This document shows, piece by piece, positions 3,797 through 26,721 of a stretch of DNA of 33,051 nt. This DNA comes from Geobacter sp. (GTDB lineage: Bacteria > Desulfobacterota > Desulfuromonadia > Geobacterales > Pseudopelobacteraceae): contig VFJM01000099.1 in NCBI GenBank assembly GCA_009886055.1, positions 1-33,051 of the forward strand. Direction: 5' to 3'. The position numbers and the translations under genes are program-made. Within the stretch, counting starts at the first letter, position 1, and the number at the start of each line of letters is the position of its first letter. The notes beneath the pieces are model-generated. The model had not been told where the DNA came from and made no database searches. It was given only the letters and a program-made list of their open reading frames with translations.

Positions 3797-6700
3797 ATGA
3801 AGCCATTCACTCGCAAAATAAATATCAAACGTGTATTCAAAGTCACGACACTGGCCATTGTCGGCATCTTGTCGCTGCTGCTGATCTGCCTTGCCTTCCT
3901 TCCGACCATCGTCAGCAGTCTCACAGTACAAACACGAATTCAGAAAACCCTCTCCATCTCCATGAAACGTCAGGTGGGCTGGTCGAATCTTGTCATGACC
4001 TGGTCCGAGGGCCTTACGCTTTCCGGACTCAAACTCGGCGACGGACCCGCGCCGCTCCTGAAAACTGATATCGATCAGATCGTTGTTGTTCCTTCTCTTG
4101 GTCGCGGCGCTGACGGGCACTTCGTTGTTGACCTTGTGGTCAGGATCAAAAACGTCCGGGCTGAACTCGCTCCCGGCCCGCCAAAACCACTCCCTCCACC
4201 ATCAACCAAAGATCCGCTGACTCTGCTGGCTGATTCGATCCAGCGCATTCAGGAACTCGACTTCCCGTTGCCGGCGGATCTGCGCGTTCAGATCGAGGTT
4301 GCGCCGCTGCAGCTGGCATATCGGGTTCCGGCACCGGGTAAAGAGCTGCGTCTGCAGGATTTTTCGTTCCGCTTTTTGATGCCGTCGCTGGCCGCCAAAC
4401 CGGTTACGGCGGAGCTGAAGGGCCGGTTATCGGTCGATGGTCGCGAGATGGGGAACGTCAGTTTCAACGCGAAGGTGAGTGACCTCGTGACCAAAGAGCG
4501 GCGGATTCGTCTCGCCTCTGCCCTCTTTGCCGTTGATGCGGCGGCGCCCGGCACGAGCATCACGCTCACCGGCGGGCTGGGTCAGGCGGACGGTTTTGCC
4601 GCACACTGGAAGCTTGACCTCCCCGGTCTGCTGGCGGTCGCAGGGCCGTTTATCCCCCCCATGGTTCCGAAGCTGGCGGGGAATGTCGAGCTTCTGCTCC
4701 TGGCAAAGACCGATGCGCAGCGCGATCTGCGCGCGACGCTGACGGTTGACGGAACCGGACTGGCCGCGAGCGGCGGTTCGCTGAAAACAAAGCGGGTCGG
4801 GCCGCTTGATCTGAAACTGCTGCAGCAGATCGCCACCGACCATGTCCGTCAGCGGGTCTATTTTCCGGGCGGAAAACTGTTCATGCCGGGGCTGATTGAT
4901 GCGGCGTGGAGCGCTTCGGTGGTCCGTCCAAATGTTCCGGAACGCTCGCTGGATCTCCAGTTCGGCCCTCTTCAACTGGATCTTGTCCGGGCGCTCTCAA
5001 TTGCCAAGCCTTTTCTCCCTCCCGATATTTCCATCAAGGATCTCGCCGGCGAAGCGTTTCTCCGCTCTCTCTCGCTGCATCTGAACGGCTCCGGAAACAA
5101 GGGTGATCTTGCCGTCACCGGTTTCGGCATCAAGCTCCCGCGCGTTCGTCTGGCGCTTAAAAAGGGGGATCTGGCCGCAGAGGACATTGATCTGCTCCTC
5201 GAAAAGGCTGAATGTCCGCTGTCAGCCAAACTGCCGACCAGACTGACGGCTGATCTTCTCTGGAGCATCAGGCGTGCAACCCTCTCCGGTGCCCAGCCGC
5301 TTGTCGTTCAGGGGGCGCGCGGAAAGGTCGGGGTGGCGGTCACCGACCTCAACCTGAAGAGCGCCTCGCCGCGCAAAGTTGCCGCTTCCGCTACGGTGAC
5401 ACAAACCATTGACCTTGACCGCGCGTCACTCGGAACACGGCTGACAATTGAAAAAGCCCATGAACAGCTCCGCTTCCTGGCCCGTGCCGCCGAGAACGGT
5501 GACATCGAGGCCTCTCTTCCTGAGTGTGTAGTAAATGCAGCCTCGCTTCAAGCTGCTCACTCCGGTAAAAAAATAACTCCGATTCCGATTTCCGCCTCTC
5601 TGACAGCGGCCGGACTTCGTCTTCCGGCCGGCAAAGGTGCGAATCCAACGCTGCAGAGCGCTGCGGCGGTGGTTTCGGCGGGTGATTTCCTGCAGCTCAC
5701 CGCCGATGCGGCCCTTTCGGGGTCGTCACCCCGGCGTGCCACTTCAAAAGGCACTGCCCGGCTTGACCTGCGGCGCGCCATGCCGTTTGCCGCCCCCTTT
5801 GTGCCGAAAGGTTTGAAGGGGGACGGAGTCGTGAGTGCGGTCTGGGATCTTGCAGCGCCGCTGCCGGAAAAGGCACTAGTCGCCGAGAAACATCCGCTCC
5901 GGAGTGCCAGAGCCGGATTATCGCTGTTTGACACACTTGAATTTGCTGTGAAGCTTGATACTATTTCTGCAACAGTTCCTTCGGCCACAGGGGAAATCCA
6001 CATGACAGGCCTGCGTAGCGGACCGGATCTGCGGCTTGTCTCAACAAAAAAAGGTGAATCAGTCAGGCTTGAAGGCGGGGTGCTGTTTTCCGCGCTGAGC
6101 GGCCTTCCGGGAGCCGCCGGGAAGTTCCCCCTCCAGCATGGCTCGTTTGCATTTACCGGCGAACTCTCCGGCTGGAATGAGTTGCGCCTGCACGAAGAGT
6201 TCCGGATTGGTCCGCTGGCTGTCTCGCACGAAGCCGAGTTGACCGTCGGCCGTATTGATTCGCTGCTGGACGAAAAACAGCCGTTCAGCACGGCGACACT
6301 GATCAAACGCCTCGACGCCACCCTGTTAGCCAATGTCGAGGGGGCGTTTTCACGCGAATTGAAGCAGCTGCTGCCGGGCATTGATGTGGCCGGAGATGTC
6401 AGCAGCAGCGCCCGTATCGACCTCAGCGCCGGTCGTGAGCTTGCGCTACGCTGCTCCGTGAAAACAAAGGATTTTGGTCTTCAGCTGGACAACGGAACCA
6501 AGGTCGAAGGGATGCGCGCCGATATTTTGATTAATCGGACCTATGCCCTGGCAGCTTCCCAGGGCGAACGCTGGACGCCGCTCTCGACGGCTCTTGTCCG
6601 GCCGGCGGCCGTGGTGACGCCCAACCCGGGTGCGGAGGGAATTGTCGGCCGGATCCATGACGATCTGCGCGGTGATCTGCGCGGGGCCCGTTCGTTCTCG

Positions 6701-7405
6701 ATCCGGCGCGTAACGACTAAGGCGTCCGGTGTGCCGCTGGTGATCACCGCGCTGGAGGGCGATCTGCTCTTTACGCCTGAAAAAACCGGTCTCAGCTTTT
6801 TTCAGGCGGATCTGATCGGGGGGACGATCCTTGCCCGCGGCCTGTTCGACCTGCGTCCGGAGGTTCCCGTTATCGCTGCGTCCAGTTCGTTCTCAAATCT
6901 TGATATTACCCATCTGCTGCCGAAGGAAACCAGAACGCGTGGGGGTGATCTGGATGCCGAGATCACCGGAGAGGTGAGTCTCACTGCACCATTGACCCCC
7001 GAACAGCGCGAGTTGTTTGAGCAACTCCGCCTTGCGCTGAATCTGCGCAAGATAGGGGCTAATACCATCGAACGGGCGCTCTTCAGCCTCGATCCGTACG
7101 AGCGCAACGAACAGCTGGTTAACCAGCGCAAAATGCTTCGCCTGGGGAGGCTGATGGGGCTGCGGGCCAATGCCGTTGATGGCGCTTTCAGCATGGAGGG
7201 TGAGGTTCAGATTAAAGGGGTGGCGGTTGATCTGCCGAAGGTTGAGCGCTTGCGGATTTCCGAGCTGCCGCTTCGTCAGGAGCTGGCCAGGAACAGGGGT
7301 GGAATCCTGGCATTACGCCGCGTTCTTGATCTGGTGCGGGCCGATACCCTTGTTGTCGGCCCGAAAGGTGAACTATCATTGAAGCGGAGGATGTATGCAC
7401 AATAG
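3797..7405 (+). CDS. AsmA/YdbH-like envelope protein (probable intermembrane bridge component)
   Basis: 1202 residues. A basic N-terminus (KINIKRVFK) and one membrane helix (about residues 14-38) anchor a very long periplasmic part. The first periplasmic stretch (QKTLSISMKRQVGWSNLVMTW) has the AsmA-like pattern of a repaired-beta-helix start. A Pro-rich linker (residues about 125-137) follows, then many repeated beta-strands with alternating hydrophobic residues. The C-terminal part (GGDLDAEITGEVSL, then GEVQIKGVAVDLPKVERL) looks like the last beta-groove segments. AsmA-like proteins (YhdP, TamB, YdbH) form hydrophobic grooves that move phospholipids between the inner and outer membranes. It overlaps the next gene, a YdbL-like lipoprotein, by 11 bp, and this gene pairing points to the YdbH branch. 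E. coli YdbH is shorter (about 880 residues), so the substrate may differ. No strong promoter was found in 3692-3796. Confidence 0.75.
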   Translation: MKPFTRKINIKRVFKVTTLAIVGILSLLLICLAFLPTIVSSLTVQTRIQKTLSISMKRQVGWSNLVMTWSEGLTLSGLKLGDGPAPLLKTDIDQIVVVPSLGRGADGHFVVDLVVRIKNVRAELAPGPPKPLPPPSTKDPLTLLADSIQRIQELDFPLPADLRVQIEVAPLQLAYRVPAPGKELRLQDFSFRFLMPSLAAKPVTAELKGRLSVDGREMGNVSFNAKVSDLVTKERRIRLASALFAVDAAAPGTSITLTGGLGQADGFAAHWKLDLPGLLAVAGPFIPPMVPKLAGNVELLLLAKTDAQRDLRATLTVDGTGLAASGGSLKTKRVGPLDLKLLQQIATDHVRQRVYFPGGKLFMPGLIDAAWSASVVRPNVPERSLDLQFGPLQLDLVRALSIAKPFLPPDISIKDLAGEAFLRSLSLHLNGSGNKGDLAVTGFGIKLPRVRLALKKGDLAAEDIDLLLEKAECPLSAKLPTRLTADLLWSIRRATLSGAQPLVVQGARGKVGVAVTDLNLKSASPRKVAASATVTQTIDLDRASLGTRLTIEKAHEQLRFLARAAENGDIEASLPECVVNAASLQAAHSGKKITPIPISASLTAAGLRLPAGKGANPTLQSAAAVVSAGDFLQLTADAALSGSSPRRATSKGTARLDLRRAMPFAAPFVPKGLKGDGVVSAVWDLAAPLPEKALVAEKHPLRSARAGLSLFDTLEFAVKLDTISATVPSATGEIHMTGLRSGPDLRLVSTKKGESVRLEGGVLFSALSGLPGAAGKFPLQHGSFAFTGELSGWNELRLHEEFRIGPLAVSHEAELTVGRIDSLLDEKQPFSTATLIKRLDATLLANVEGAFSRELKQLLPGIDVAGDVSSSARIDLSAGRELALRCSVKTKDFGLQLDNGTKVEGMRADILINRTYALAASQGERWTPLSTALVRPAAVVTPNPGAEGIVGRIHDDLRGDLRGARSFSIRRVTTKASGVPLVITALEGDLLFTPEKTGLSFFQADLIGGTILARGLFDLRPEVPVIAASSSFSNLDITHLLPKETRTRGGDLDAEITGEVSLTAPLTPEQRELFEQLRLALNLRKIGANTIERALFSLDPYERNEQLVNQRKMLRLGRLMGLRANAVDGAFSMEGEVQIKGVAVDLPKVERLRISELPLRQELARNRGGILALRRVLDLVRADTLVVGPKGELSLKRRMYAQ

Positions 7406-7994
7406 AATAGTAGCAGTGTCGCTGTTGCTCGGAACGGCTCTTGTCTTCTCCGGATGCACACTTGCCAAGGTTGATGTCAATGTCGTCAGCGAGCGGACGT
7501 CGCTTGAAAACCAGGTGCTCGGGACATACAACAGCCTGAGCGAGGATATGCTGCTGGTCGCATCGGTTCGGGGGGTCTCTCCGACCGGGAAGATCGAAGC
7601 GCCGCCCCGTCATACACCGGAGCAGGTCGATGCCACCCGGGCGATGGAGACAATCGCATTTCATGCCGATGATATCGAAACCTTTAAACGTTTCGGCTGG
7701 GTAGGTGAGAACCAGGAGGGACTGTTAACCCCGTTCACCCGCGAGACCCCGAAGGTGGCGTCTGCAGAGCTGAAGTCGTTTGCCGCCAACTACAGCGAAG
7801 CGGAATTTCAGCAGGTGGTGAAGGAGGTCAACCAGTCGCGGGAGACCCTGATGATGCGGGTGGTCCAGACCAATGAAAACTTTACGATCAAGGATCTGCC
7901 GGCAATCCGCAAGGTATTTGCCCGGATAAACCGTCAGAACAGCGCGCCAGGCTCCAAGGTGCAGGATGCCGATGGCCGGTGGCAGACGCTATGA
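7395..7994 (+). CDS. Lipoprotein with YdbL-like (DUF1318) C-terminal domain
   Basis: 199 residues. The signal peptide ends in a lipobox, V-F-S-G-C with C21 as lipidation site, so the mature protein is a lipoprotein, probably in the outer membrane since D does not follow the Cys. The segment after the Cys (about residues 22-50, KVDVNVVSERTSLENQVLGTY) resembles the short lipoprotein YnbE. The C-terminal half (GWVGENQEGLLT, VVKEVNQSRETLMMRV, IRKVFARINR, GRWQTL) follows the order and spacing of YdbL: VGE...GxL, a vxxxNxxR helix, and a final G-x-W. In E. coli ydbH-ynbE-ydbL form one operon in which YdbH and YnbE make an intermembrane bridge and YdbL modulates it. Here one protein seems to carry both small functions. 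It overlaps the AsmA-like gene by 11 bp and the giant CHAT gene by 4 bp. Confidence 0.72.
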   Translation: MHNRIVAVSLLLGTALVFSGCTLAKVDVNVVSERTSLENQVLGTYNSLSEDMLLVASVRGVSPTGKIEAPPRHTPEQVDATRAMETIAFHADDIETFKRFGWVGENQEGLLTPFTRETPKVASAELKSFAANYSEAEFQQVVKEVNQSRETLMMRVVQTNENFTIKDLPAIRKVFARINRQNSAPGSKVQDADGRWQTL

Positions 7995-10900
7995 AACGGC
8001 ATCGGGTGGGGGAGATACTCGGTCTGTTCGCGCTGGTTCTGTTGACCTGCTCTTCACCGGCAACAGCACTCCCGCTGGGCGATGAGCTGCTGGCGCCGGC
8101 TGTACCCCGTTCCACGCCCCGCTCCCGTCCGGAACTCTCCCCTCAGCCCGCCATCTTCAGCTCGCGCCAGGTTCTGTACGTTGCCCGGGCTGCCGACGGC
8201 ACACGAATGGTCACCGTTGAACGGGGGGACAAGGGGGATGAACTCTGGCTTTACTCCTTCGCCGCAGTTCCGGAGCTGCCGCGGCTGCTCCATTCAAGCC
8301 CGGTCCGTCTGGCCGCCCCCGCCCTCAATTCCGGCGGAACGCTCGTTGCCTTTGTTGATGCACAAGATGATGTCAAGGGTGATATCTGGCTGATAAACCT
8401 TGCAAAGTCTGATTCTGCTCCCCGGCGATTGACCGGCCGGGAATCTGCCGATGATGCGCCGGTGTTTATGGCTGATGGAGCAGCACTGGTGTATCAGAGA
8501 CAGATGCCGGGATCCGGGTTGCGTGAACTGGTGCGGATCCACCTCAAGGATAACCGGAGCGAACAGCTGAAGATCGGCATCGATGCCGCTTTTGCAGCCC
8601 CTTCTCCGGACGGGGGGAGGTGGCTGTTCGTGTCGCGGCACTCCGATCCGAACGGCGATCTCTGGCTCTGGAACGAACAAGGCGGACAGCTTACGCAGCT
8701 GACGGGTGGCGCAGGTCGCGATCTCTATCCGGCCTGGGAAACCCCGGATACGATCCTTTTTACCCGCCAGTCCGCCGCCTTTGGGGATGCCGTGACCGGC
8801 CAGGAGTCGGGGCAGATTTACCGGCTGTATCTGAAGCGGGACGGCGATGACGGCTTTCCGTTTGTTTCTCCTCTCACCTCAGCCGCATTGATGGCGGTGG
8901 CGCCGATTCCGGCGGGGGACCGATTTTACTTCGTTGCCGGTTTGGCCGGTGGCGGGCAGGTGATGTCTCTCCCCGTATCCGGCGAAATCCCGGATCGGCC
9001 GACCGTTGCTGAACAGTGGGCGCTGGCACGCATACTTCTGGAGCGTCAGCCCCCCGATCCGGCTCATGCCCGTTTGGCTTCCGCCCGTGTTTCGGCGCGT
9101 GAGGATTCGCCGACGCAGGAGGGGGCGCTTGCCGGGCTGGCGCTGGCCGGGCTGATGGAACAGGCGGGTGAAGCCGCTCAAGCCGGGGAGCAGTACGCTT
9201 CGGTGGCGCGTCGCTACGCCCGGTTCCCGCGGGAAGCGGCACTGGCCGGAATCGCGCGGATCAGAGTCCAGGCGGCCCAGCGCTGCAGCGATGTCGTTTT
9301 GCTGCAGCGGCGGCAGGAGATACTCCGCGAGGCGGCGCAGGAGATGAAGGCCGCTGCGGAGGGGAAAGGCGCCGATGCTGCGGCCCGCTATCTGATCGAT
9401 TCGGCCCGCCTGCTGACTGATTTCGGCGGAGGCGCCGCCGATCAACTGACCGCAGTCGGGTTGGCTGAACAGGTCGCCCGGCTGAAGGATGCCGCCAGGC
9501 CGCTCAAGGCGGAGGCTTCCCTGCGGCGCGCCTTGCTGCTGGCAAAGCTTGAGCAAGGCGAGGGGGCGCTTGGCGCTCTGGTAAACGTTGCAACTGAATA
9601 TGGTGACCAGGAAGAGTGGGCTGAAGCGGCGATTACCGCCGTTCTTGATCAGGTTTCTCCCCGTGATCGCTCGGATCAGGCGGCGCTCTCGGCGCTGGCA
9701 GAACGGTATCGATTATCTCTTCCCCGCCTGGCGATGGGAGCCTGGAACCGCCAGGGTGACGTGGCCTATCGCGCGAATGAGTGGGCCAAGGCCAAGGATG
9801 CCTATCGCACGGTTCTGGAAAATTTTCCCGTAGTACCGACTCCGACCGCTGCGGCGCGCTTTGCGCTGGCGGAAGTGCTCTATCGTGAGGAACGCTACGC
9901 GGAAGCAAAGGCGCTGTATGAAACGGAGATGAACGAGCAGCCGGAGGACACGCCGCTCTACCAGCTCGCCCGGGCCGCCTATATACGCAAAACGGTCGCG
10001 GCGGGTGAAAATCTGTACCGACTGGGGGAAGTCGCCGCTGCCCGTTCGATTTTTCTCGACCTTATCCGCTATGACGGGCGGAGCATCGAGGCGCATCGCG
10101 GCTACATCAAATCGGTTGCGGCGATGGGGCAGGCCGGGGAGCTGCTCGACCTGTACCGCAAGCTGCTCCACACCTATCCCGATGATCCGGTGCTGCTGTA
10201 TGCAACGGGGCTCACGCTGACCTATCTGCCGGGCAAGGAACGCCTGGAGGAGGCAGACCGTTTGATCTCCCGGGCGGCGGACAGGATGCCGTCATCGGAA
10301 TATCCTCCCCAGACCAGGGGGTATATTGCCGAAATCGCCGAAACGGTGCATGGCGAACGGGGCGGGCTGGAACGGGCGCTGGCACATTACCGCCGCGCCT
10401 GGCTGCTCAACCGGCCGTTGGAACAGCCGGAAAACCGGGCCAACCTGGATCTGAACATCGGCAATATTGCGTTTCTGCTCGGCAGCAAAGCAACCGCCTG
10501 GAAGTTTTACAGCCAGAGACTCGCCTCGGGTATACCGTTCGATAATCAGGATACCGAGCTGATCTTTCAGCAGCGCTATGCTGCGGTAGCGTTCCAGATG
10601 CGCGAGAAGGAAGCTCCTATCGCGGGCTATCTCAGGGCGCTTCAACTGGTCGAGGCACGATTGAATCCGTCCCGTCCGCTCGATCTGTTCGGCCGTCTGT
10701 CGAGGAGGGTCGTGGAACGGCTCTTTTCCGGAACGGGGCGCTCCAGGGCAGCGGAAGCGGCACTGGGCGAGCACCAGGCAATCAGCGCCGAACTTGAGCG
10801 ACTCGGTGCGTCCCCTCCCGAGGCACCCCCGTCGGCCGGGTGGAACAGTTTCGACAAGACGACCCGTTCTCTGCTTGAACGGCAGCGGGCACTCCTCTCC

Positions 10901-13900
10901 TCCTCACCTTCCTGGAGCAAGGATGCCGCCAAGAGCGCCGCCGAGCTGAGCGGCATGGCAGCCGCCGTGGAAAAGGAGCTGGATGCCGTTCCGCGCCTGG
11001 TGGAAACGGCTGCGGAGATCCACGACCGGCTCGGGCTGGCGTACCTCGAAGCTGATCGCTATGCCGCTGCCCGCGAGCAGTTTGATGCCGCCTTCAAACT
11101 GAATCAGGGGCTCGGCTTCACCGGCAACCTTGCCTCCAACCGGCGTTCCGCCAGCATTGCCGCCTATAAGGAGGCGCATCTCGCTTCCGGCGAGGAGCAG
11201 CAACGACTGCTGCGCCTGAGCCGTGACGGTTTCGCCCAGCTGTTGACGTTGATTGCCACGAACCCGCCCAAGTCGAAAGCACCGGCAAAGCGGAGCGGCG
11301 GTCTGGTGGAACTGTCCGCAAACCTGGCGCTGGACAAGGGCGGTTCAACCGAAGCAGCTTTCGGCTTCAGCGCCGAACAGGAAAAACGGCTGGCCGAAAT
11401 TTATCTGGCCCGCATTCAATCCGAGCTGGGTGACCCGGCAGCCGCTGCCGCCCTGCTGAGGAATCAGCTGAAGCAGTATCCGTCCGATAACAAAAAAATA
11501 GCTGTACCTGATCTGTACGGAGTCACGCTCCTCTCGCACCGCACCGCTCATATCGATTATGCGCTGGGTGACCTCAAAAATGCGGCTGCCGGCTTTCAGC
11601 GCTCTACGCTCCTGGCTCTGCAGGGGGGAAACCCGATCAGCGCCATGCTTAATCTTGTCAACTGGGGACAACTCCTGGCTGCAGACGGGAAACCGGGAGA
11701 TCTTGCCGGTTTTCTGAACGCCGAGGCGCGCGTTTCCCGACTGGCGGACGGCTCTCGCACTGCACTCCCGCCGCTCGTGTATGGCCGCTATCACAATGAC
11801 GCCGGGGCGCTTCTCGCCCGGCTTGCCACGACCGCAGCCGATGACGGCGCCCGTCAGGCGCTTCTGTACAAAGCACTGGAACAGTGGGACCGGACGCTCT
11901 TCATTGCCGCTGACAGCCGTGACAGAGATGTGCTCCATCAGCAGCGCCGTCAGCGGGCGGCGGCCCAGCTTAACCGCGCCGCAGTTCTTGCCGCTCTTGG
12001 TCTGACCGATGGCGCGAGAGCGGCCCGGAGTGCCGCCCTCGATGAAGCCCGCACCGTTGCGGCGTATTCGCTCGAATGGCGCGCTCTTGCCTTGCTCGGC
12101 CACTACGATGACGCGCTCGGACTGCTCTTTCATCTGCCGTTGACGGAGTATGACCTGCAGCGGGGAGAGCTCCTGGAGCGCTTTGCACCGCATCTTGAGA
12201 CGCTCGCCGCCAGGAACCCCGAACAGTCGTTTGCGCTGCTGGAAAAGTTGAGTGAGATCGAACGGGTCCAGCTTCTCGCGCGGGGCGCTCTCGGGCTGAG
12301 TGATCCGGCTACAGTCGGCCAGTTCCGAGCCGCAGCGCCTCATCTGGTCGAAATCGACCGGCTCCGCGATGCGGCTGCCAAGGCAGCGGCTGCAGACAAG
12401 GAGTATCTGCAGCTTCGGCTTCAGCAGGAGCAGGCGGTCATGGACGATTTGTTCGGAGCCACGCTCGAACGAATCCCCTCTTTTTACGCACAGGGAGGAG
12501 AAAGTGCGCTCCGACTGGCGGCAGCATCGGTTGATCTGAGCGTGTTGTCCCGAGCCGGTGATGGTTCGCAAGCCCAAGGCGATGCCTTCAAGGTTGCAGA
12601 GCAGCGCTTCAGCACCATTTTGCTGATGTTCAACAAGGAGTGCGCCGCCGGGAAGGGTGGAAGGCTCTGCATGCTGATTTCACCGCAACCGGTCGAACTG
12701 ATCGATGTTCAGGAAACTCTCCCGGGAAAGACGCTGCTCCGCTTCACACCACTCGACAGCAGTCGCTGGCTGCTCTTTACAATCGGCGGCACGGCGGGGA
12801 TCATCGCCGAAACGGTTGACAGGAGTGCGCTCGATGTTCGACTCTCTGCTGTCCCGCCGATTCTGGCTGCCTATGAGGAACCCGGCCGTTTTAGCTCCGC
12901 TCCGGTGATCAGCTGGGGGCTCAGCGCCAGTCACCTTGTCCGGTCGGTTTCCGGGCGCAAACCGTTCCGCCGCCAGATCCTCGATCCGTCCGGCTGGTGG
13001 CCGGTCGCCGATCCGTTCTCAAAGCTGGTGTCACCGGCGATGACCGACCGACTACCCGATGCCCATACGCTGGTGCTCCCGGCCCGGGCCGGTCTGTTGC
13101 CTGAAGTCCCGTCACTCCCGGGTGGAAGCGGATACTCGCTGCCGTTGTGGGAAGATGAGAAAGGTCAGCGCCGTCCGTTTTCCGAACTGGCTGCAGCGGA
13201 AAATCTCTCTCTGGTTGTTGCCCCGAACGCCGGTTCACGACAGGCCTACAGCCTGGGGCAACTGGCGGCGCTGCAGGGTGTGCCGTCGCTCCTTCTCGCC
13301 GATGGCGCAACAGTAGAATCACGGGCGTTTGTCGAAGCGTATGCGCGGCAGTCTCTCGGTGATGCCCGCAAACAGCTGAAACCGGGCTGGCTGCTGATCG
13401 GCGACTGGGGTCCGGACGCAACCGAAGCGGCAAAGCTGGGGAAAAGCCGTTTCACCGAATACGGCAAGGCAGGGGTGCTGGCTCACAACGCCGGGTCATA
13501 CCCGAAAGCGCTCTCTCTCTTTGAAAATGCCCTGACAATCGTCGCCGAAAATCCCACTCTGGCAAAGCAGCGCACCCCGCTTCACCGTTATGCCCGCGAA
13601 AGCGCGTTTGCCGCCGGATTTACCGATCGGGCGATTATCCACGCCGATGCTCTGGTCAAGGGATTGGCCAAGGAGAAGCCGTATTCGGCTGAACATGCCG
13701 ATGCGCTGCTGAGGCTCGGTCTTCTGCAGGGGAATGCCGAACGGTTTTCCGATGCAGCCGTTTCATTGAAAGAGGGGGTCGGCATATTTGCCGATCTCGG
13801 TATGGCAAAGGAGCAGGCGGCTGCGCTGGCGGACTTCGGCGTCGTGATGGAGAATGCGGTCAATTTTGCGGCGGCCCGGACGTTTTTCGAGGAATCTGCC

Positions 13901-16282
13901 GGTCTGCGCCGGACGTTGAAGGATGACGTGTCTCTGGCCGAACAGTACCGGAATCTCGGTCGCATCTATGACCTCCGGCTCAACCAGTATGCCGTGGCCG
14001 AACAGTATTATGCCCAGGCCGGAGAAATCTACGCCAAGGGAGGCAACACGCCTCTTGAAGCCGAAACGCTTCTCGAGCGGGGGCGCTGCCAGCGCCTGCT
14101 CGGCAATTTCCCGGCCGCCGACAAACTCTACAGCGATGCGCTGGCAAAAGTCGGCGCAAAGGATCTGCGCACGAAGATGCGGATCGTGCTGGAGCAGGCC
14201 AATAACGCCTGGTTCCAGGGGCGTTATCAGGAGGCGTTTGACCTGCGCGAACAGGTGGAAAAGAGCGCAGTCGCTGAAAAATGGCCGCTTGAACAGGTCA
14301 TGGCGAAGAACACCGGCGGTCTGATCTGGTGGACGCTGGGGGACAATAAACGGGCTCAGCTGGAGCTGCGCGGGGCGCTGGAACGCGCCGAAAAACTGGC
14401 GGTCAGGCGTGATGAAGTTGCGACGACGCTCAACAACATCGGCCTCGTTCAGCGTGAGTCGGGAGAATATGCCACGGCGCTGGAGACGCTCGAAAAAGCG
14501 CTTGCCATCGATCGTAAACTCGGCTCCCGCTGGGCGATGGCGTACGATCTGCGCAATCTCGGCCAGACCCGCCTGAAGATGGGTGACGCCGCAGCCGCTC
14601 TGCCGCAGTTCACGGAGGCCGCCGGCATGGCCGCAGACATCGGTGACAAGGTCAACCTTGCCAAGATCCATCTCGCTCGCGGCGATGCCGAAGCAGAGCT
14701 GAAGCAGCCCGCTGCGGCCGCAGCGAGTTACCGGAACGCGCTTGAAATTGCCGATGCGCTGCTGTTGCGTGAAGTCAGGTGGCGGGCACTGTTCGGTTTG
14801 GCCCGGCTGCAGAAAAATGCCGGAGATCCGGTAAAGGCGGTCGCTTCGTATCAACAGGCGCTGGAAACGGTTGAAGGGCTGCGCGCCGAAATAAAGCTGG
14901 ACCGGCTCAAGGACGGTTTTCTTGCCGACAAGATGGATGTCTATTCCGGACTGGTCGGCCTGCTGGTTGATCTGCAGCGGAGTGACGAAGCGTTCGCCGT
15001 GGCGGAGCGTTCCCGCTCCCGCAACCTGATTGACATCCTCGGTCGTCAGCGACTGTCGCTCTCCGGATCGGTCGATCAGGAGCTCTATGACCGTCAAAAC
15101 CGTCTGAAAGAACGGATGCTTGAACAGGAAACGTTGTCGGTTCAGGCGGCGAACCCGAAAGAGCGGGCCCGCTATGCCCAGGCGCTTGAAAAACTGCGCG
15201 GCGATTATCAGGACCTGCTGATCGATATCGAGCGAAAGCGCCCGGAGCTGCTTGCCCTGGTGAAGGTGAACCCGACAACGCTTGACGATATCCGCGCACT
15301 TCTTGAGCCGGGGGTCGTCCTGCTTTCGTACTATCAGCTCCCCGACCGGCTCCTTTGCTGGAAGATCGACCGCGATCGGGCAACTCTGGTAATTCAGAAT
15401 ATTCCGGCTAAGGAGCTCTCCTCGAAAATATCATCTTACCGCCGAATGCTGCAAAATCTGGAGCCGCTTGAAAAACAGTCACGCGAACTGTATGACCTGC
15501 TGGTTGCGCAGCCGCTTGCGGGGAGCGGGCCGCTGCGTGCGGTCGGCATCATCCCGCACGGCAGTCTCCACTATCTGGCGTTTGCAACCCTGAGTGACGG
15601 GCGGGATTACCTGATCGACCGGCAGAAGATGTTTTATCTTCCGGCGGCATCGGTCTTGAAATACACGCTGGCGAGACGGAAATCCGGGAAGAAGCTTCAC
15701 ATTCTGGCAATCGGAAACCCCGATCTGGGGAATTCTTCCCTCGATCTCCCCTTCGCCGAGCGTGAAGCCGGAACCCTGCGCTGGAATTATCCCGATGTGA
15801 CGACCCTGACCCGCGAGCGCGCCACCGAGAGCTGGGTGCGGGAACATATCAGCGAATTCGGCGTCATACACATTGCATCTCATGGAGAATTTGATCCGGT
15901 CAATCCGCTCTTTTCGGCGATTCGACTGACTCGCGACAGCAAAGCTGACGGGAAGCTCCAGGCGGAAGAAATTTTCGGACTCGATATCCGGGCAGATCTT
16001 GTCGTGCTGAGCGCCTGTCAGACCGGTCTGGGAGATATACGGAGCGGTGATGATGTTGTCGGCATGAACCGTGCGTTTATTTTCGCCGGCACCCACTCGC
16101 TTATGTCGAGCCTTTGGAGGGTCAGCGACGTTTCGACGGCGATCATGATGAAACAGTTCTACCGCAATTACATGACCTACGGAAAAGCGGAGAGTCTGAC
16201 CCGCGCGATGCAGCACGTAAAAAACCGCTACCCTCATCCCGGCTATTGGGGGGCGTTTGTCCTGACAGGTGATTATCAATAG
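7991..16282 (+). CDS. Giant exported beta-propeller/TPR/CHAT (caspase-like) protein
   Basis: 2763 residues from ATG 7991, chosen because ATGA couples it to the previous stop; a GTG at 7979 would add four residues. Order: Sec signal peptide (1-26, ending PATA); WD40/TolB-like propeller (about 50-335: APSPDGGRWLFV, GDLWLWN, YPAWETPDTILF); long TPR array (about 340-1440); a CHAT-like domain without catalytic Cys (about 1545-1806); second TPR array (about 1815-2350: AEQYRNLGRIYDLRLNQYAVA); coiled linker; C-terminal CHAT domain (about 2430-2763). The last has the family's PHGSLHYLAF, catalytic H2631 (IASHGEF) and C2676 (LSACQTGLGD), and the closing WGAFVLTGDY, so it should be an active Cys peptidase. 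Most CHAT proteins work in the cytosol, so export is odd. Substrate unknown; neighbours suggest an envelope role. C20 in LLTC is a poor lipobox. Confidence 0.85.
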   Translation: MKRHRVGEILGLFALVLLTCSSPATALPLGDELLAPAVPRSTPRSRPELSPQPAIFSSRQVLYVARAADGTRMVTVERGDKGDELWLYSFAAVPELPRLLHSSPVRLAAPALNSGGTLVAFVDAQDDVKGDIWLINLAKSDSAPRRLTGRESADDAPVFMADGAALVYQRQMPGSGLRELVRIHLKDNRSEQLKIGIDAAFAAPSPDGGRWLFVSRHSDPNGDLWLWNEQGGQLTQLTGGAGRDLYPAWETPDTILFTRQSAAFGDAVTGQESGQIYRLYLKRDGDDGFPFVSPLTSAALMAVAPIPAGDRFYFVAGLAGGGQVMSLPVSGEIPDRPTVAEQWALARILLERQPPDPAHARLASARVSAREDSPTQEGALAGLALAGLMEQAGEAAQAGEQYASVARRYARFPREAALAGIARIRVQAAQRCSDVVLLQRRQEILREAAQEMKAAAEGKGADAAARYLIDSARLLTDFGGGAADQLTAVGLAEQVARLKDAARPLKAEASLRRALLLAKLEQGEGALGALVNVATEYGDQEEWAEAAITAVLDQVSPRDRSDQAALSALAERYRLSLPRLAMGAWNRQGDVAYRANEWAKAKDAYRTVLENFPVVPTPTAAARFALAEVLYREERYAEAKALYETEMNEQPEDTPLYQLARAAYIRKTVAAGENLYRLGEVAAARSIFLDLIRYDGRSIEAHRGYIKSVAAMGQAGELLDLYRKLLHTYPDDPVLLYATGLTLTYLPGKERLEEADRLISRAADRMPSSEYPPQTRGYIAEIAETVHGERGGLERALAHYRRAWLLNRPLEQPENRANLDLNIGNIAFLLGSKATAWKFYSQRLASGIPFDNQDTELIFQQRYAAVAFQMREKEAPIAGYLRALQLVEARLNPSRPLDLFGRLSRRVVERLFSGTGRSRAAEAALGEHQAISAELERLGASPPEAPPSAGWNSFDKTTRSLLERQRALLSSSPSWSKDAAKSAAELSGMAAAVEKELDAVPRLVETAAEIHDRLGLAYLEADRYAAAREQFDAAFKLNQGLGFTGNLASNRRSASIAAYKEAHLASGEEQQRLLRLSRDGFAQLLTLIATNPPKSKAPAKRSGGLVELSANLALDKGGSTEAAFGFSAEQEKRLAEIYLARIQSELGDPAAAAALLRNQLKQYPSDNKKIAVPDLYGVTLLSHRTAHIDYALGDLKNAAAGFQRSTLLALQGGNPISAMLNLVNWGQLLAADGKPGDLAGFLNAEARVSRLADGSRTALPPLVYGRYHNDAGALLARLATTAADDGARQALLYKALEQWDRTLFIAADSRDRDVLHQQRRQRAAAQLNRAAVLAALGLTDGARAARSAALDEARTVAAYSLEWRALALLGHYDDALGLLFHLPLTEYDLQRGELLERFAPHLETLAARNPEQSFALLEKLSEIERVQLLARGALGLSDPATVGQFRAAAPHLVEIDRLRDAAAKAAAADKEYLQLRLQQEQAVMDDLFGATLERIPSFYAQGGESALRLAAASVDLSVLSRAGDGSQAQGDAFKVAEQRFSTILLMFNKECAAGKGGRLCMLISPQPVELIDVQETLPGKTLLRFTPLDSSRWLLFTIGGTAGIIAETVDRSALDVRLSAVPPILAAYEEPGRFSSAPVISWGLSASHLVRSVSGRKPFRRQILDPSGWWPVADPFSKLVSPAMTDRLPDAHTLVLPARAGLLPEVPSLPGGSGYSLPLWEDEKGQRRPFSELAAAENLSLVVAPNAGSRQAYSLGQLAALQGVPSLLLADGATVESRAFVEAYARQSLGDARKQLKPGWLLIGDWGPDATEAAKLGKSRFTEYGKAGVLAHNAGSYPKALSLFENALTIVAENPTLAKQRTPLHRYARESAFAAGFTDRAIIHADALVKGLAKEKPYSAEHADALLRLGLLQGNAERFSDAAVSLKEGVGIFADLGMAKEQAAALADFGVVMENAVNFAAARTFFEESAGLRRTLKDDVSLAEQYRNLGRIYDLRLNQYAVAEQYYAQAGEIYAKGGNTPLEAETLLERGRCQRLLGNFPAADKLYSDALAKVGAKDLRTKMRIVLEQANNAWFQGRYQEAFDLREQVEKSAVAEKWPLEQVMAKNTGGLIWWTLGDNKRAQLELRGALERAEKLAVRRDEVATTLNNIGLVQRESGEYATALETLEKALAIDRKLGSRWAMAYDLRNLGQTRLKMGDAAAALPQFTEAAGMAADIGDKVNLAKIHLARGDAEAELKQPAAAAASYRNALEIADALLLREVRWRALFGLARLQKNAGDPVKAVASYQQALETVEGLRAEIKLDRLKDGFLADKMDVYSGLVGLLVDLQRSDEAFAVAERSRSRNLIDILGRQRLSLSGSVDQELYDRQNRLKERMLEQETLSVQAANPKERARYAQALEKLRGDYQDLLIDIERKRPELLALVKVNPTTLDDIRALLEPGVVLLSYYQLPDRLLCWKIDRDRATLVIQNIPAKELSSKISSYRRMLQNLEPLEKQSRELYDLLVAQPLAGSGPLRAVGIIPHGSLHYLAFATLSDGRDYLIDRQKMFYLPAASVLKYTLARRKSGKKLHILAIGNPDLGNSSLDLPFAEREAGTLRWNYPDVTTLTRERATESWVREHISEFGVIHIASHGEFDPVNPLFSAIRLTRDSKADGKLQAEEIFGLDIRADLVVLSACQTGLGDIRSGDDVVGMNRAFIFAGTHSLMSSLWRVSDVSTAIMMKQFYRNYMTYGKAESLTRAMQHVKNRYPHPGYWGAFVLTGDYQ
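12623..13408 (+). other. Internal degenerate CHAT-like domain within the giant protein
   Basis: Residues about 1545-1806 run through the same landmarks as the C-terminal CHAT domain. A strand pair with LLRFTPLDSSRWLLFTI matches the LLSYYQLPDRLLCWKI region. DPFSKLVSPAMTDRLPDAHT then LVLPARAGLLPEVPSL matches the VAQPL...AVGIIPHGSLHYLAF region. LVVAPNAGSR...SLGQLAALQGVPSLLLAD matches VLSACQTGLG...MNRAFIFAGTHSLMSSLW, and GWLLIGDWG matches the closing WGAFVLTGDY. The Cys position is replaced (APNAG for SACQTG) and no IASHG-type His is evident. This is a reading by eye; structure prediction would decide. Confidence 0.5.
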
Positions 16283-16393
16283 ATAAGCAAATTATAGACA
16301 GGGAGGGGGAGATGGTAACGTAATAAAGCGGAATAAAAACCGGCTGTGAAAGAATGTCGGATTTACACCGCTAAACCGAAGTGAAGCATCTAC

Positions 16394-16401
16394 AAAGGAG
16401 G
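16394..16401 (+). promoter_or_regulatory. Strong ribosome binding site deciding the SH3b gene start
   Basis: AAAGGAGG lies six bases before ATG 16408. An in-frame GTG at 16381 exists but would place this site inside the gene and has none of its own, so 16408 is the start. Confidence 0.8.
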
Positions 16402-16407
16402 TTCAAG

Positions 16408-16950
16408 ATGAGGATTACCCGTAGCATGACACGTAGTATGGTTGCCGTATTGGCCCTGTTGCTGGCCGCTTCAATTGCCATGGCCGAGGAAAAACGCTGG
16501 GTGTCCAGTGAGGGGACGGCGCTGAAAGCCGAGGCGTCAGCCACGTCCGAGAACGTTGCCGACCTGAGCGTCGGTACGGAGGTTGCCGTTGTCGAATCGG
16601 GCGGTCGTTGGCTGAAAGTCAGGACCTCTGCCGGTAAAGAAGGGTGGGTGTATGCCGGCCGGGTTTCCGAAACACCACCTGCTGCTGAAGTTGCCGGCGG
16701 CGACGGCGGTATTTTCGGAGACAGTATGAAAAGCAGTCAGATCAAAACGGCCAAGGCCGATAGCGCCCGCAGTATCCGTGGCCTTTCCCCCGGGGCGGCC
16801 CAGTACGCAAAAGATCGCGGCACTCCGGAAATGTACAGGAAGTCGCTCGATGTCGTTCTGGCGCGGAAAGTCAGTGCCAAGGAGTTGAAAGCCTTTCTGA
16901 AAGAGGGAAAAATCGGCGAATATGCCCAGGTTCAGGGAGGTGGCAAATGA
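16408..16950 (+). CDS. Secreted bacterial SH3-domain (SH3b) protein
   Basis: 180 residues. A Sec signal peptide (1-26, ending SIAMA) exports it. Residues about 28-90 form an SH3b domain: SEGTALKAEASATSENVADL is the first strand pair, followed by GTEVAVVESGGRWLKVRT and the GKEGWVYAGRV closing motif. SH3b domains in exported proteins often bind peptidoglycan or peptide stems. The C-terminal part (about 105-175: RSIRGLSPGAAQYAKDRGTP, EMYRKSLDVVLARKVSAKEL) is helical and unrecognised. It starts 125 bp after the CHAT gene behind its own strong ribosome site and ends in an ATGA overlap with the M48 peptidase gene, so those two are translationally coupled. It may help dock the peptidase at the cell wall (inference). 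Confidence 0.82.
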   Translation: MRITRSMTRSMVAVLALLLAASIAMAEEKRWVSSEGTALKAEASATSENVADLSVGTEVAVVESGGRWLKVRTSAGKEGWVYAGRVSETPPAAEVAGGDGGIFGDSMKSSQIKTAKADSARSIRGLSPGAAQYAKDRGTPEMYRKSLDVVLARKVSAKELKAFLKEGKIGEYAQVQGGGK

Positions 16951-17819
16951 GATTAATCCTATCCGTAGCATTGATAACTTTATCCATTTCGGCGACATCC
17001 GAATCGGCAGGCTTGTTTGATTCGTTACAGAAACTCACCGATCCGGCCTCAAAAGAGCGCCAAATATTATCAGGATCAAGCCAGGTTTTATCGAGCTCGA
17101 AGGAGATCGATTATCCGACCGAACGAACCATTGGTGAAAGCCTGGCGCTGGAAGGGTTGCAGCGTTTCGGGAATCCGGTGAAAAACGAAGCGTTGCAGCG
17201 GTATGTCAATCTGGTAGGTAACGCTGTTGCCACAAACAGCAAGCGCGCGACTATCCCGTATCAGTTCGCGGTACTGGACAGCCCGGTGCAGAACGCTTTC
17301 GCCGTCCCGGGAGGGGTTATTTTCGTCAGTCGCGCCCTGGTCTCCATTCTGGAAGACGAGGCTGAGCTGGCGGCCGTTCTTGCTCACGAAGTCGGGCATG
17401 TATCGGCGAAGCACGCATTGAAGAGCACGCAGCGCGCCCAGTTCTTCGAGGGTGTCGGTACGATTACCGCAGCAAGCGTCCGTGGTGACAAGGGGAAAAA
17501 ATTCGCCTCCGCCATTGGAGACATGCAGGCCGTGCTGTTTGACAAGGGGCTTGATAAGGATATGGAGTTCGAAGCGGATCTGGCGGCAATGGAAACGACC
17601 TATCGTACCGGGTACGATCCATCTGCCATGATCAGGGTGCTTGAGAAACTGCAGAAGCTGGAAGCATCGAGCACGAACAAGAAGGGGTCATGGTTCTCGA
17701 CGCATCCGCCGCTTGCCGAGCGTATTGCACGGCTTCAGGCCCAGTTGCAGAAATATCCGGATCATTCTTCGTTGGCGAGTGTGCATGACAGGTTTGCGAA
17801 AACTGCGAAAGTGAAATAG
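16947..17819 (+). CDS. Exported M48-family zinc metallopeptidase
   Basis: 290 residues with an N-terminal signal peptide (about 1-20) and no further membrane helices, so it is probably a soluble periplasmic enzyme like BepA/LoiP-type M48 peptidases. The zinc site is intact: H147-E-V-G-H151 in VLAHEVGHVSAKH, and the third ligand is E209 in EFEADLAAM. The SWFSTHPPLAERIARL motif near the C-terminus is typical of the family. These enzymes degrade misassembled outer-membrane proteins. Unlike BepA (about 487 residues) it has no C-terminal TPR; the TPR-rich giant protein is encoded just upstream. It overlaps the SH3b gene by 4 bp and is followed by a putative terminator, so it closes the locus. Confidence 0.92.
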   Translation: MRLILSVALITLSISATSESAGLFDSLQKLTDPASKERQILSGSSQVLSSSKEIDYPTERTIGESLALEGLQRFGNPVKNEALQRYVNLVGNAVATNSKRATIPYQFAVLDSPVQNAFAVPGGVIFVSRALVSILEDEAELAAVLAHEVGHVSAKHALKSTQRAQFFEGVGTITAASVRGDKGKKFASAIGDMQAVLFDKGLDKDMEFEADLAAMETTYRTGYDPSAMIRVLEKLQKLEASSTNKKGSWFSTHPPLAERIARLQAQLQKYPDHSSLASVHDRFAKTAKVK

Positions 17820-20896: not shown

Positions 20897-22993
20897 TCAG
20901 TAACTGTGACATACATTACATTCGTTATTCCACCAGCGGTATGGTGTTCCCCATTTAACCGTTGTCTGTTCTCTGTGACATGACACATTCGAGCAGTTCT
21001 TTGTGAGAGGCTCATATGTCGCATTGGCGAGACTCATGGAAACATCACCTCTTGACCATGTTGAGTAAACAAAGGGATTCTGCTTGTCAAAAGACACATC
21101 GTTGCTGCCGTTTACATGCTTGGAAAAATTACTGATCGGAACCTCGCTGAGAGTCCTCACGCCCATGTCGTCCACTGTATATGTGTTCAACTGATTGACG
21201 GTGTTATTGTGGCAGTACATGCAGCTTACCGGCGTTGAGCCCATATTGTAGGTGTGCAGGTTCTGATAACCATATTCATCGATCCATGAGTGGCTGTCCC
21301 CTGCACCGCCGTCGTTGGTGGTATATGACGTCTGAGTGGGATTCCCGTGGCATCCGGAGCAGGAGAGCGGGGTGCCACCCCAAGTGATGCTCTTGTAGTT
21401 TCTGGTGACAACAGTCTTTGCTTTCCAGTCTGGATCACTATCCGAAATGGCCTCCGTCGTCGTCCACTCATTGTAGCTATGACAGTAGACGCTGCTGCAT
21501 GTCCCTTTAGTATAGGGAACTCCTTTGCTGTCCGTGAAGATTTCTGGACCGGCGATATATGCAGCGGACACCGGGTTCAGGGCCTTGAGCGATCCGGTCG
21601 GCGCCAGCGGGCTGTACAGCTCCACATCCACCACACCGTTGTCGTGATTTACCGCATCCACGGGATGACAGTTGCCGCAACCGAAAATATACGCGCCGCT
21701 GTAGCTGCCGAAGGACTGGGTAATACGGGTATCGCCGTAGCGTGGCCGAGTGACACTGGCGCCGTAATGCTTCAGGTGGGAAGCTGTGGTCGGTGGACTT
21801 TCGTGACAGCTATCACAACCGCTCGAAACGGTTGTATGCGGGTTGTGACAGCTAACGCAGGTTTTTACACCGATTGCTAATGGATGGTTTGGGACATTTC
21901 CTTGAGCGTCGCTGTGGCAGTTTTGGCATATATTGACCATGGCTGCCAAGGGCGAATAGGCATGTGACAAGTTGTTGTCCGGGTTATGGCAGTTGACACA
22001 GCTTTTGATGCCGTAGTGCGGCGAACTGGTGAATCCGGGAACTGCCGGCCCGTTCGTGCCGTCGTGACATGAAAGGCAGATATTCGTCTCAACCAAAACT
22101 GGTGAAACAGTCGCGACAGTTGCATTCGCCTGCGGGCTGGGGGTTACACCTGCGGCGATGACCGTCAAAGTGACCGTGCAACTGCCGATAGTTGTGGGCG
22201 CGGCGTATGTTGCCGTTTTGGCGTTTGGCCCCGTCGGCGTTACCGTCCCGCAGGTGGCGGTCCAGTTATAAGTCGTCCCGGCGACGTTGGACGAGCTGGT
22301 CGAGCCGTCAATAGCGATCCCCGTCGTTCCGGTTGCGACGGTCTGCCCCGGCGTTGAGATGACTGCCGTCGCCGTGGGGAGTTGCGCGAATATGCCTTTT
22401 ATGGAGTGCGCTGCGTTTACCGCGAGAAATGTGTAGGTTGCCCCGCTCGCATCGCCGCTTTTGGTTACAAACGAGGGAAGGGGATCGGCAAGGGCATATG
22501 TGCTGTTGTCGATGAGTGCTCCGGTAAGGTGATACCCGTTGAAGGGCGTTGCAGTTACGCTCTGGTTCGTACCGGCCGGCGCACTCAATGACGAAGAAAT
22601 GTTTCCGCCTGTCGCGGCATAAGTGGTGATGACGTAACTTGCTGCAGCGTATGAGGCAACAATGGTATGGCTCAGCGTCGTCCCCTTTTGGACAGTGTAT
22701 GTCCCGGCTGTCGTACCTTTCACGGCCCCGTCGACTTTGACGTTCACCAGCTTATAGCCGATGGGAACGGTTGCGACGAAGTTAACGGAGGGGTACGGGG
22801 TTCGTATGACGTTAGTCATTGAGCCACCGTTCGGCGTCGTATAGTTGCCGAAATTTGCCGGACGGGCGGGAAGCAGGTTCGACTTGAGTGCCGCCGGTGA
22901 CGTGGATGCCGTTATCGCCCAGTAGGTGGTTGCATTGACGAAGGCCGGCAGAAGTAATAGAAGCGTGCAGTATAAGCCTGTCTTTTTCAGCAT
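20897..22993 (-). CDS. Secreted multiheme c-type cytochrome (9 CXXCH + 2 CX4CH) with Ig/repeat-like N-terminal domains
   Basis: 698 residues. A Sec signal peptide ends near VNA. Residues about 25-300 lack heme motifs and form beta-rich domains: a bacterial-repeat-type pair (VVASYAAASYVITTYAATGG; VTATPFNGYHLTGA) and a PKD/Ig-like unit (STPGQTVATGTTGIAIDGS...TYNWTATCG). From C306 on there are nine CXXCH motifs (CLSCH, CVNCH, CQNCH, CVSCH, CDSCH, CGNCH, CSGCH, CMYCH, CNVCH) and two CX4CH motifs (CSSVYCH, CSNVSCH), each of the latter followed by a CXXCH, as in the Geobacter CxxxxCH...CXXCH domain family. Up to eleven hemes could be bound, suiting extracellular electron transfer. No lipobox is present. 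The ribosome site AAGGAG on the minus strand lies seven bases before ATG. It stands alone, convergent to acnB. Confidence 0.9.
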   Translation of the reverse strand: MLKKTGLYCTLLLLLPAFVNATTYWAITASTSPAALKSNLLPARPANFGNYTTPNGGSMTNVIRTPYPSVNFVATVPIGYKLVNVKVDGAVKGTTAGTYTVQKGTTLSHTIVASYAAASYVITTYAATGGNISSSLSAPAGTNQSVTATPFNGYHLTGALIDNSTYALADPLPSFVTKSGDASGATYTFLAVNAAHSIKGIFAQLPTATAVISTPGQTVATGTTGIAIDGSTSSSNVAGTTYNWTATCGTVTPTGPNAKTATYAAPTTIGSCTVTLTVIAAGVTPSPQANATVATVSPVLVETNICLSCHDGTNGPAVPGFTSSPHYGIKSCVNCHNPDNNLSHAYSPLAAMVNICQNCHSDAQGNVPNHPLAIGVKTCVSCHNPHTTVSSGCDSCHESPPTTASHLKHYGASVTRPRYGDTRITQSFGSYSGAYIFGCGNCHPVDAVNHDNGVVDVELYSPLAPTGSLKALNPVSAAYIAGPEIFTDSKGVPYTKGTCSSVYCHSYNEWTTTEAISDSDPDWKAKTVVTRNYKSITWGGTPLSCSGCHGNPTQTSYTTNDGGAGDSHSWIDEYGYQNLHTYNMGSTPVSCMYCHNNTVNQLNTYTVDDMGVRTLSEVPISNFSKHVNGSNDVSFDKQNPFVYSTWSRGDVSMSLANATYEPLTKNCSNVSCHREQTTVKWGTPYRWWNNECNVCHSY

Positions 22994-26400: not shown

Positions 26401-26721
26401 TTTCAGTTGCGAGAGACGAGGAAGCTGTGAAGCGATGCGCCAGCTCAGCGAAGTGTGAGTAAACGGAAACGATGAATGAGACTCGGGAAGTACCGATGAG
26501 AAGCTCCGGTCGAGGAGGTCGTTGGGAAAACTGAACTCAAGGCCGGCAGATACGCCGAGACGAGCGGCAAGCTCCATCGATATCCAGCGAGCCATGCCAG
26601 GGCTGAGGATAACGATACTCTCTTTTTCCAGTGGTGACAGCGGCGAGGAACAGAAATTGTCGGCAACTGCCTCAAGCAGGCGTCGTTGCGAACAGCTGGT
26701 TATGAGTCTAAGTGTCGGCAT
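23497..26721 (-). CDS. recC: RecC, exodeoxyribonuclease V gamma subunit
   Basis: 1074 residues, near the usual size (E. coli RecC 1122). RecC is the Chi-recognising scaffold of the RecBCD helicase-nuclease for double-strand break repair. The N-terminus reads LRLITSCSQRRLLEAVADNF, then IVILSPGMARWISMELAARLGV, the inactivated helicase motif I region of RecC. Further landmarks are FGISYLPPFHLEALRLL, IHSCHGTLREMEILYDNLL, PDIETYAPYISSVF and IWLAGMNDGQFPR, all RecC-typical, and the C-terminal part resembles the nuclease-like fold. No internal stop or frameshift. Unusually, no recB or recD follows it; a cytochrome gene lies 503 bp downstream. It is divergent from yicC with about 200 bp between them. 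Confidence 0.93.
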   Translation of the reverse strand: MPTLRLITSCSQRRLLEAVADNFCSSPLSPLEKESIVILSPGMARWISMELAARLGVSAGLEFSFPNDLLDRSFSSVLPESHSSFPFTHTSLSWRIASQLPRLSQLKGFEQIASYLGDGRDDRRLLQISRSLADCFDQYTIFRPEMVCAWDNGDDNDWQAQLWRAINRDCQGSHRAALLKALHNHVSSGAPPVGTLPRRVTLFGISYLPPFHLEALRLLSAYCDVTCYLLNPCGQYWGTIISEKKKSQITVRSALPADAEEYYETGNPLLSSLGTLGQEFFETLLEYGFEVEELDSVPEGALQNKYTTSPSILSAIQNDILTLFDRPAGSTKGVVSADDRSLQIHSCHGTLREMEILYDNLLSQFDELPGLEPRHIVVMIPDIETYAPYISSVFGSRSSGRPPLPYTIADRSIRRESFFVDAFLKILDTAPGRFALHEILDLLETPAIMSRFDLDEDELIDIRSWLHDCNVRWGFDADHRADLGFPRYTDFSWQAGLDRLFLGYAMSPDDSSTFSGILPYPACSGRQAEALGKLAEFMATVRENNARLSVRHTLPEWADIFTATVDRMLLPDDSDSGGPLAVAKALNSLREACRLHGFKQPIALDAVRDHLAESLAGSGGGYGFMGGSITFCAMLPMRSIPMRVIWLAGMNDGQFPRTEKPPGFSLMNGARRRGDRSLRDEDRYLFLEAFMAAEDRFCISYNGQNNRDNSSMPPSVLVAELNDYVTNGFVRSDGTTPASVLTRHRLQGFSPTYFDNSDPAHLFSYDRESCQAIEAGRVSGRSRREFTGKPLPLDGASVLQLDLQQLRRFLANPAAAFLEQRLRVKPFNPAEEPDESEPFALDALSRYTLSQELVSQLLKGAGYDDSLSAARSRGILPPLSAGKAAFDAVWERSRLFAAALEPQLGFPLDPLTITFAGDRVQLHAVLENCRSGTHLRWRCAGMKGKDRLALWLDHLLLNIAKAEGYPLQSMLIANDMTLELPQIDHAADILSDLLDLYCEGMTRPLRFFPETSWAFLKEGQQKAERSWRGDQRMGFPGECDNQAVALCFGGENPWGEEFNALAERIYGPLIAAIK

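Follow-up and report, generated by a model that had tools for sequence, protein, structure and literature searches.

A five-gene envelope locus conserved in Desulfobacterota links an AsmA-clan protein and a YdbL-like lipoprotein to a giant protein with predicted tandem CHAT domains

Five consecutive genes of Geobacter sp., encoding an AsmA-like protein, a DUF1318 lipoprotein, a giant CHAT protein, an SH3b protein and an M48 metallopeptidase, very probably specify one machine, because sulfate- and metal-reducing bacteria nearly always retain the whole set, even when its genes are scattered over the chromosome. The partnership of the five components is well supported. We put the probability of the full explanation that we favor, i.e., an AsmA-YdbL lipid bridge between the two membranes under the control of a dedicated periplasmic tandem-CHAT protease, at roughly 0.5; lipid transport and protease control are what we infer here. 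No description of the five-gene system was found in the open-access literature, and it is apparently undescribed.

The window, i.e., the whole stretch of DNA that was analyzed, comprises 33,051 nt of the forward strand (contig VFJM01000099.1, positions 1 to 33,051; assembly GCA_009886055.1) from Geobacter sp. (GTDB lineage Bacteria; Desulfobacterota; Desulfuromonadia; Geobacterales; Pseudopelobacteraceae). As an earlier sequence-only reading had described, the ORF list places five consecutive genes on the (+) strand at 3797-17819, with overlaps of 11, 4 and 4 bp, and all of their products are exported or anchored (Table 1). Signal peptides are present in the giant CHAT, SH3b and M48 proteins, a lipobox in the DUF1318 protein and an N-terminal hydrophobic anchor in the AsmA-like protein. 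The giant-CHAT gene most likely starts at the in-frame ATG at 7991, where the sequence ATGA gives the 4-bp overlap with the lipoprotein gene; an alternative GTG at 7979 would yield a protein of 2767 aa. Profile searches with the window proteins matched DUF1318 (7.6e-9), CHAT (PF12770, 8e-57), SH3_3 (2.9e-9) and M48 (PF01435, 2.2e-35). Against sister genomes, dN/dS was 0.07-0.21 for all five genes, which are therefore real and under purifying selection.

Table 1. Features of the five-gene locus, in coordinates of the window
Feature	Position	Strand	Details
Putative AsmA-clan periplasmic bridge protein	3797..7405	+	1202 aa; N-terminal hydrophobic membrane anchor
DUF1318 (YdbL-like) lipoprotein	7395..7994	+	199 aa; 11-bp overlap with AsmA gene; lipobox VFSGC, Cys at 7455
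Conserved N-terminal segment of mature lipoprotein	7455..7574	+	CTLAxVxVxVVSERTALENQVLGTYN...SVRG; predicted unstructured strand-like stretch, then helix
Giant TolB-like propeller / TPR / tandem-CHAT protein (predicted)	7991..16282	+	exported; 2763 aa
Predicted pseudo-CHAT, second CHAT / clan-CD-like domain	12692..13420	+	no conserved His/Cys; AlphaFold pLDDT 79
Predicted active-type CHAT domain	15476..16273	+	His codon 15881-15883, Cys codon 16016-16018
SH3b protein	16408..16950	+	exported; ORF 16381-16950, start probably 16408
Half-DUF1318-like segment of SH3b protein	residues ~121-172 (16768-16923)	+	related to lipoprotein residues 56-107
M48 zinc metallopeptidase	16947..17819	+	exported; 290 aa; 4-bp overlap with SH3b gene; HEVGH at about 17385

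In a family sample of 76 genomes, AsmA, the lipoprotein and full-length giant CHAT were all confined to one genus (30 of its 39 genomes for AsmA), and the genus genomes that missed single members were incomplete or fragmented assemblies. The order AsmA - lipoprotein - CHAT - SH3b - M48 was kept in 19 of 20 genus loci; in the exception (G028), SH3b-M48 lies on a separate contig, ahead of acnB. Within the family sample SH3b was restricted to set-bearing genomes (28/30). Six of the genus genomes had none of AsmA, lipoprotein and CHAT; a genome search found no SH3b in any of them, nor was SH3b-M48 found upstream of acnB (with a few kilobases covered in two of the six). CopA and AcnB, which flank the locus, are likewise conserved within the genus, as would be expected if the genes were adjacent without any joint function (neutral synteny).

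The sequence-only reading had suggested a survey of gene neighborhoods, and the gene order proved to be conserved well beyond close strains. The lipoprotein alignment was used as the query in a scan of about 85,000 species, with one genome per species, and the best 80 of 129 relatives were analyzed. All were labeled Desulfobacterota-type or Deltaproteobacteria, apart from one labeled just Proteobacteria, and they include Geomonas, Citrifermentans, strain NaphS2, Desulfonema, Deferrisomatales and Magnetocorallium. Among these best 80 of 129, the five-gene order recurs in Geobacterales, Desulfobacterales, Deferrisomatales and others: AsmA lies immediately 5′ of the lipoprotein in 72 of the 74 loci with enough flank, CHAT follows immediately 3′ in 70/77, and after CHAT come SH3b (42/48) and M48 (40/48). 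All five genes also stand in this order in a distant genome (G100), the linked case that has diverged furthest. The lipoprotein and CHAT genes overlap, or are separated by no more than 10 bp, in 32 of 47 loci.

Eight genomes in which the lipoprotein locus lacked an adjacent CHAT gene, or lacked AsmA, were searched whole. A full-type giant CHAT was present elsewhere in all eight, and an AsmA match was obtained in all three of those chosen for a missing or truncated AsmA gene next to the lipoprotein, as a truncated neighboring copy in G471 and at another position in G470 and G472. SH3b and M48 lay side by side at another site in six of the eight (G465, G467, G468, G470, G471 and G472) and were not found in the draft assemblies G466 and G469. 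The complete chromosome of Desulfonema magnum carries AsmA-lipoprotein, CHAT and SH3b-M48 far apart (at 7.51, 0.42 and 1.56 Mb, respectively), and in another genome (G135) diverged members are spread over four contigs. A Magnetocorallium locus with AsmA unlinked from the lipoprotein (L251, 7512-11990) has an M48-like gene (E 5e-15) immediately 5′ of AsmA.

In a phylum sample of 395 genomes, giant CHAT occurred in 12 of 12 lipoprotein-bearing versus 3 of 383 lipoprotein-less genomes (Fisher p about 2e-20, a value that ignores relatedness and in part reflects shared ancestry). Two of the three CHAT-only genomes are incomplete (79 and 86%). In the third (G315), the AsmA contig ends right after AsmA and the CHAT contig begins within CHAT; because both contigs break there, the lipoprotein may lie in the gap between them. 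The distance matrices of the three main proteins correlate with r of 0.96-0.98, which vertical descent alone could also yield. The unlinked cases are evidence for co-inheritance independent of the Fisher test. They contradict neutral synteny, and the order is moreover kept across orders of the phylum with differing flanks, so that this explanation is barely credible. The joint system of AsmA bridge, lipoprotein, CHAT, SH3b and M48 that the sequence-only reading had put forward is thus borne out by order and co-occurrence across the phylum, including unlinked genes.

A Pfam search with the window's own AsmA-like protein gave zero matches. We assign it to the AsmA clan because its homologues match families of that clan: of 27 diverse homologues, 15 matched DUF748, 12 AsmA and 10 YhdP. 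The earlier description of a YdbH-like bridge is therefore supported for the clan, but not for YdbH specifically, an identity that is not demonstrable from sequence: hhalign of the AsmA-like alignment against E. coli YdbH returned a probability of 0.4% (with a single-sequence target), and the YdbH family was absent among the Pfam matches of the homologues. Solved-structure searches with the AsmA profile yielded nothing useful. The best-conserved stretch in the conservation profile is formed by the last ~200 residues (about 6797-7396). In Geobacter sp. OR-1 (L155, 6294-9978) and in a MAG (L164, 6536-9861), the AsmA gene is represented by two ORFs, perhaps through a frameshift or a sequencing error. 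In a Desulfobulbaceae MAG (L187, 8706-10001), about 1.3 kb separates AsmA from the lipoprotein gene; the two usually abut.

The label YdbL-like was upheld for the lipoprotein. PF07027 matched 31 of 31 members, hhalign gave a probability of 92, and a fold search with the AlphaFold model produced one good match, E. coli YdbL (28oj), with a Foldseek probability of 1.00 and a TM-score by target of 0.82. By profile and predicted fold, the protein is a lipidated, extended YdbL. The first 40 residues after the lipidated Cys have a mean pairwise identity of 0.75-0.80, versus about 0.5 in the DUF1318 part, and the AlphaFold pLDDT falls below 50 at residues 27-30. Because the strand-like stretch is conserved yet predicted to be unstructured, it would fit a segment that is ordered by its partner. 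That the lipoprotein might be a YnbE-YdbL fusion was suggested just by position and by the strand-like N-terminus; hhalign gave this no support, aligning YnbE with 12 signal-peptide residues only.

Generic DUF1318 lipoproteins of Desulfobacterota (CVTVNVYFPA... type) share the lipidated DUF1318 domain and sometimes adjoin an AsmA-like gene, but they do not have the SERTALENQVLG N-terminal segment, and no giant CHAT was found in the eight loci inspected. Two loci (L264, 7935-11196; L266, 7776-12024) have CVTVNVYFP-type lipoproteins beside an AsmA-like gene without giant CHAT, the neighbor being identified by an AsmA profile match in L266 and by reading, as an 880-aa ORF, in L264. The AsmA-DUF1318 pairing may thus be more general than the five-gene system.

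The giant protein begins with a signal peptide, in place of which a few relatives have a lipobox; it further comprises a TolB-like propeller, extended TPR arrays and, at its C-terminus, a CHAT domain. This domain is active-type, with catalytic His and Cys present: H2631 and C2676 (numbered from the ATG) do not vary among 20 diverse members with identities as low as about 35%. Conservation is highest in this domain, although the propeller and TPR portion is conserved too. Solved-structure searches with the active-CHAT profile yielded nothing useful. A second CHAT domain was weakly indicated by profile comparison (probability 14-31%), and the assignment was settled by a fold search. The divergent region, i.e., residues 1480-1830, was modeled with AlphaFold (pLDDT 79), and VIA-align gave the model Z scores of 13.2 to ctSPD separase, 11.9 to Csx29, about 10 to gingipain and 9.3 to SAVED-CHAT, the following folds being at Z 6.8 and below. 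The alignment contains no conserved His/Cys pair in this domain. By alignment and model, the giant protein is thus a tandem CHAT protein, with one dead and one active-type domain.

CHAT domains can serve as signaling scaffolds without known protease activity. The giant protein might thus be a structural assembly scaffold or a sensor of the AsmA-YdbL bridge, with its protease activity incidental or lost and any control coming from M48. Conservation of the large propeller and TPR portion, retention of a non-catalytic CHAT fold in the pseudo-CHAT, and the presence of the transmembrane anti-sigma factor DdvA among the structural matches of its model are consistent with such a role, whereas the invariance of H2631 and C2676 and the conservation of the active CHAT above all other parts argue against it. 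We consider a pure scaffold rather unlikely, and prefer a protease.

The M48 protein matches the M48 profile and has HEVGH as its HEXXH motif. It shares an exported M48 catalytic domain with BepA and LoiP, but lacks the TPR domain of BepA and the lipobox of LoiP, and its scores against the NCBIfam models of BepA (88 bits, cutoff 570) and LoiP (65 bits, cutoff 365) are far below the cutoffs. This partial resemblance, together with the TolB-like propeller and the inclusion of TamB in the AsmA clan, would suit quality control of the envelope or of outer-membrane proteins, in which CHAT, M48 and propeller would act on misfolded outer-membrane proteins (BepA/TamB-like) and AsmA would be a TamB-like assembly factor, not a lipid conduit. 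However, the presence of a DUF1318 partner speaks for the YdbH-YnbE-YdbL type, the Pfam matches are to DUF748, AsmA and YhdP rather than TamB, and no TamA-like barrel gene was noticed beside the locus, making quality control an improbable account.

The C-terminus of the SH3b protein scored 30.5 against lipoprotein residues 56-107 in a profile comparison, versus at most 18.3 in 60 shuffles, so that two proteins with different probable anchors bear related segments. The motif S[VI]RG[VL] is common to both (SVRGV or SVRGI in 76 of 80 lipoproteins, with SVR in 80/80; 44 of 44 SH3b proteins), compared with a single match in 727,000 aa of background ORFs. It had been entertained as a CHAT cleavage site and was demoted, since the homology of the two segments accounts for it.

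Given the role of the AsmA clan in outer-membrane lipid homeostasis, the YdbL fold of the lipoprotein and the order of the genes in E. coli, we read the core as a lipid bridge between the two membranes. We infer the complex, the locations of its parts, its lipid cargo, and the cleavage with its target and purpose as follows. The AsmA-clan protein would be anchored in the inner membrane and span the periplasm with a hydrophobic groove for lipids, and the DUF1318 lipoprotein, in the outer membrane, would cap or license the C-terminal end of the bridge. In E. coli, YnbE caps YdbH; here one chain may do the job of YnbE plus YdbL, which are two chains in E. coli. The giant protein would be a periplasmic sensor-protease, with its TolB-like propeller and TPR arrays monitoring the bridge or envelope and its two CHAT domains (dead plus active, like Csx29) cleaving a component, such that the bridge is switched on or off or jammed complexes are removed. 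The M48 peptidase might clear the cleavage products, and the half-DUF1318 segment of the SH3b protein, on a probable peptidoglycan anchor, could let the same partner dock at a second place. A further, tentative possibility is that a caspase/separase-type protease gates the bridge, so that phospholipid traffic to the outer membrane is set by regulated proteolysis of the AsmA-YdbL conduit, carried out by a dedicated tandem-CHAT enzyme of the periplasm.

A defense or programmed-death system using a periplasmic CHAT protein was also considered, given that CHAT proteases are known in CRISPR type III-E (PMC10028731) and that the distribution is patchy (12-15 of 395 genomes in the phylum sample). Against this, PADLOC models gave generic TPR hits and, at 17 bits, a weak one to BovA, none of them system-defining; the set is kept by 30 of 39 genomes of the genus, between conserved housekeeping genes; its members are retained even where they lie apart on the chromosome; and every part is exported. 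We regard a defense role as most improbable.

Elsewhere in the window, a SNF2/DEAD helicase (29026-32574) whose N-terminus bears a Swt1-like HEPN domain (Pfam HEPN_Swt1 2.5e-15) may be part of a defense or repair locus, and a PIN-domain-like protein, by reading, is encoded just 5′ of it (28078-28482). There are also a multihaem c-type cytochrome (20897-22993), which has GSu C4xC/C2xCH motifs as well as a divergent InlB-like repeat, and, on the minus strand, a 1074-aa ORF that by reading resembles the exonuclease V gamma (RecC) subunit (23497-26721).

The five-gene set offers a genetic handle on the control and anchoring of AsmA-like bridges, and it is found in cultured species (Geomonas, Citrifermentans bremense and Desulfonema magnum). 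It would give the CHAT/separase protease family a role in the envelope, and a YdbL-type protein converted to an outer-membrane lipoprotein would aid the interpretation of many unstudied DUF1318 lipoproteins.

The tandem arrangement resembles that of Csx29 of the type III-E CRISPR Craspase, which has TPRs, a pseudo-caspase CHAT1 and an active separase-like CHAT2 (PMC10028731). Both have a dead and an active CHAT with TPRs, and Csx29 matches the fold of the predicted dead domain, but the window protein is exported, about four times larger, and has an N-terminal propeller and TPRs between its two CHATs. It scored 45 bits against the Csx29 model (cutoff 300), and no Cas genes were recognized on inspection of the window. 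Eukaryotic separase, the best fold match of the dead CHAT, likewise has a helical-repeat region followed by a clan-CD protease; the window protein differs in being a bacterial, probably periplasmic protein, with no cohesin and two CHAT-like domains. AsmA-like proteins are required for outer-membrane lipid homeostasis in E. coli (PMC8593681). As in the E. coli order ydbH-ynbE-ydbL, an AsmA-like gene precedes a lipoprotein/DUF1318 gene with an overlapping start, and the YdbL fold and AsmA clan are in common. The window AsmA protein is longer than E. coli YdbH (1202 versus 879 aa), with no detectable sequence similarity; YnbE is missing, the YdbL-type protein has a lipid anchor of its own and an extension, and dedicated CHAT, SH3b and M48 partners are added. 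The core is thus a variant of the AsmA-YdbL kind, and the new element is its coupling to a dedicated tandem-CHAT protein.
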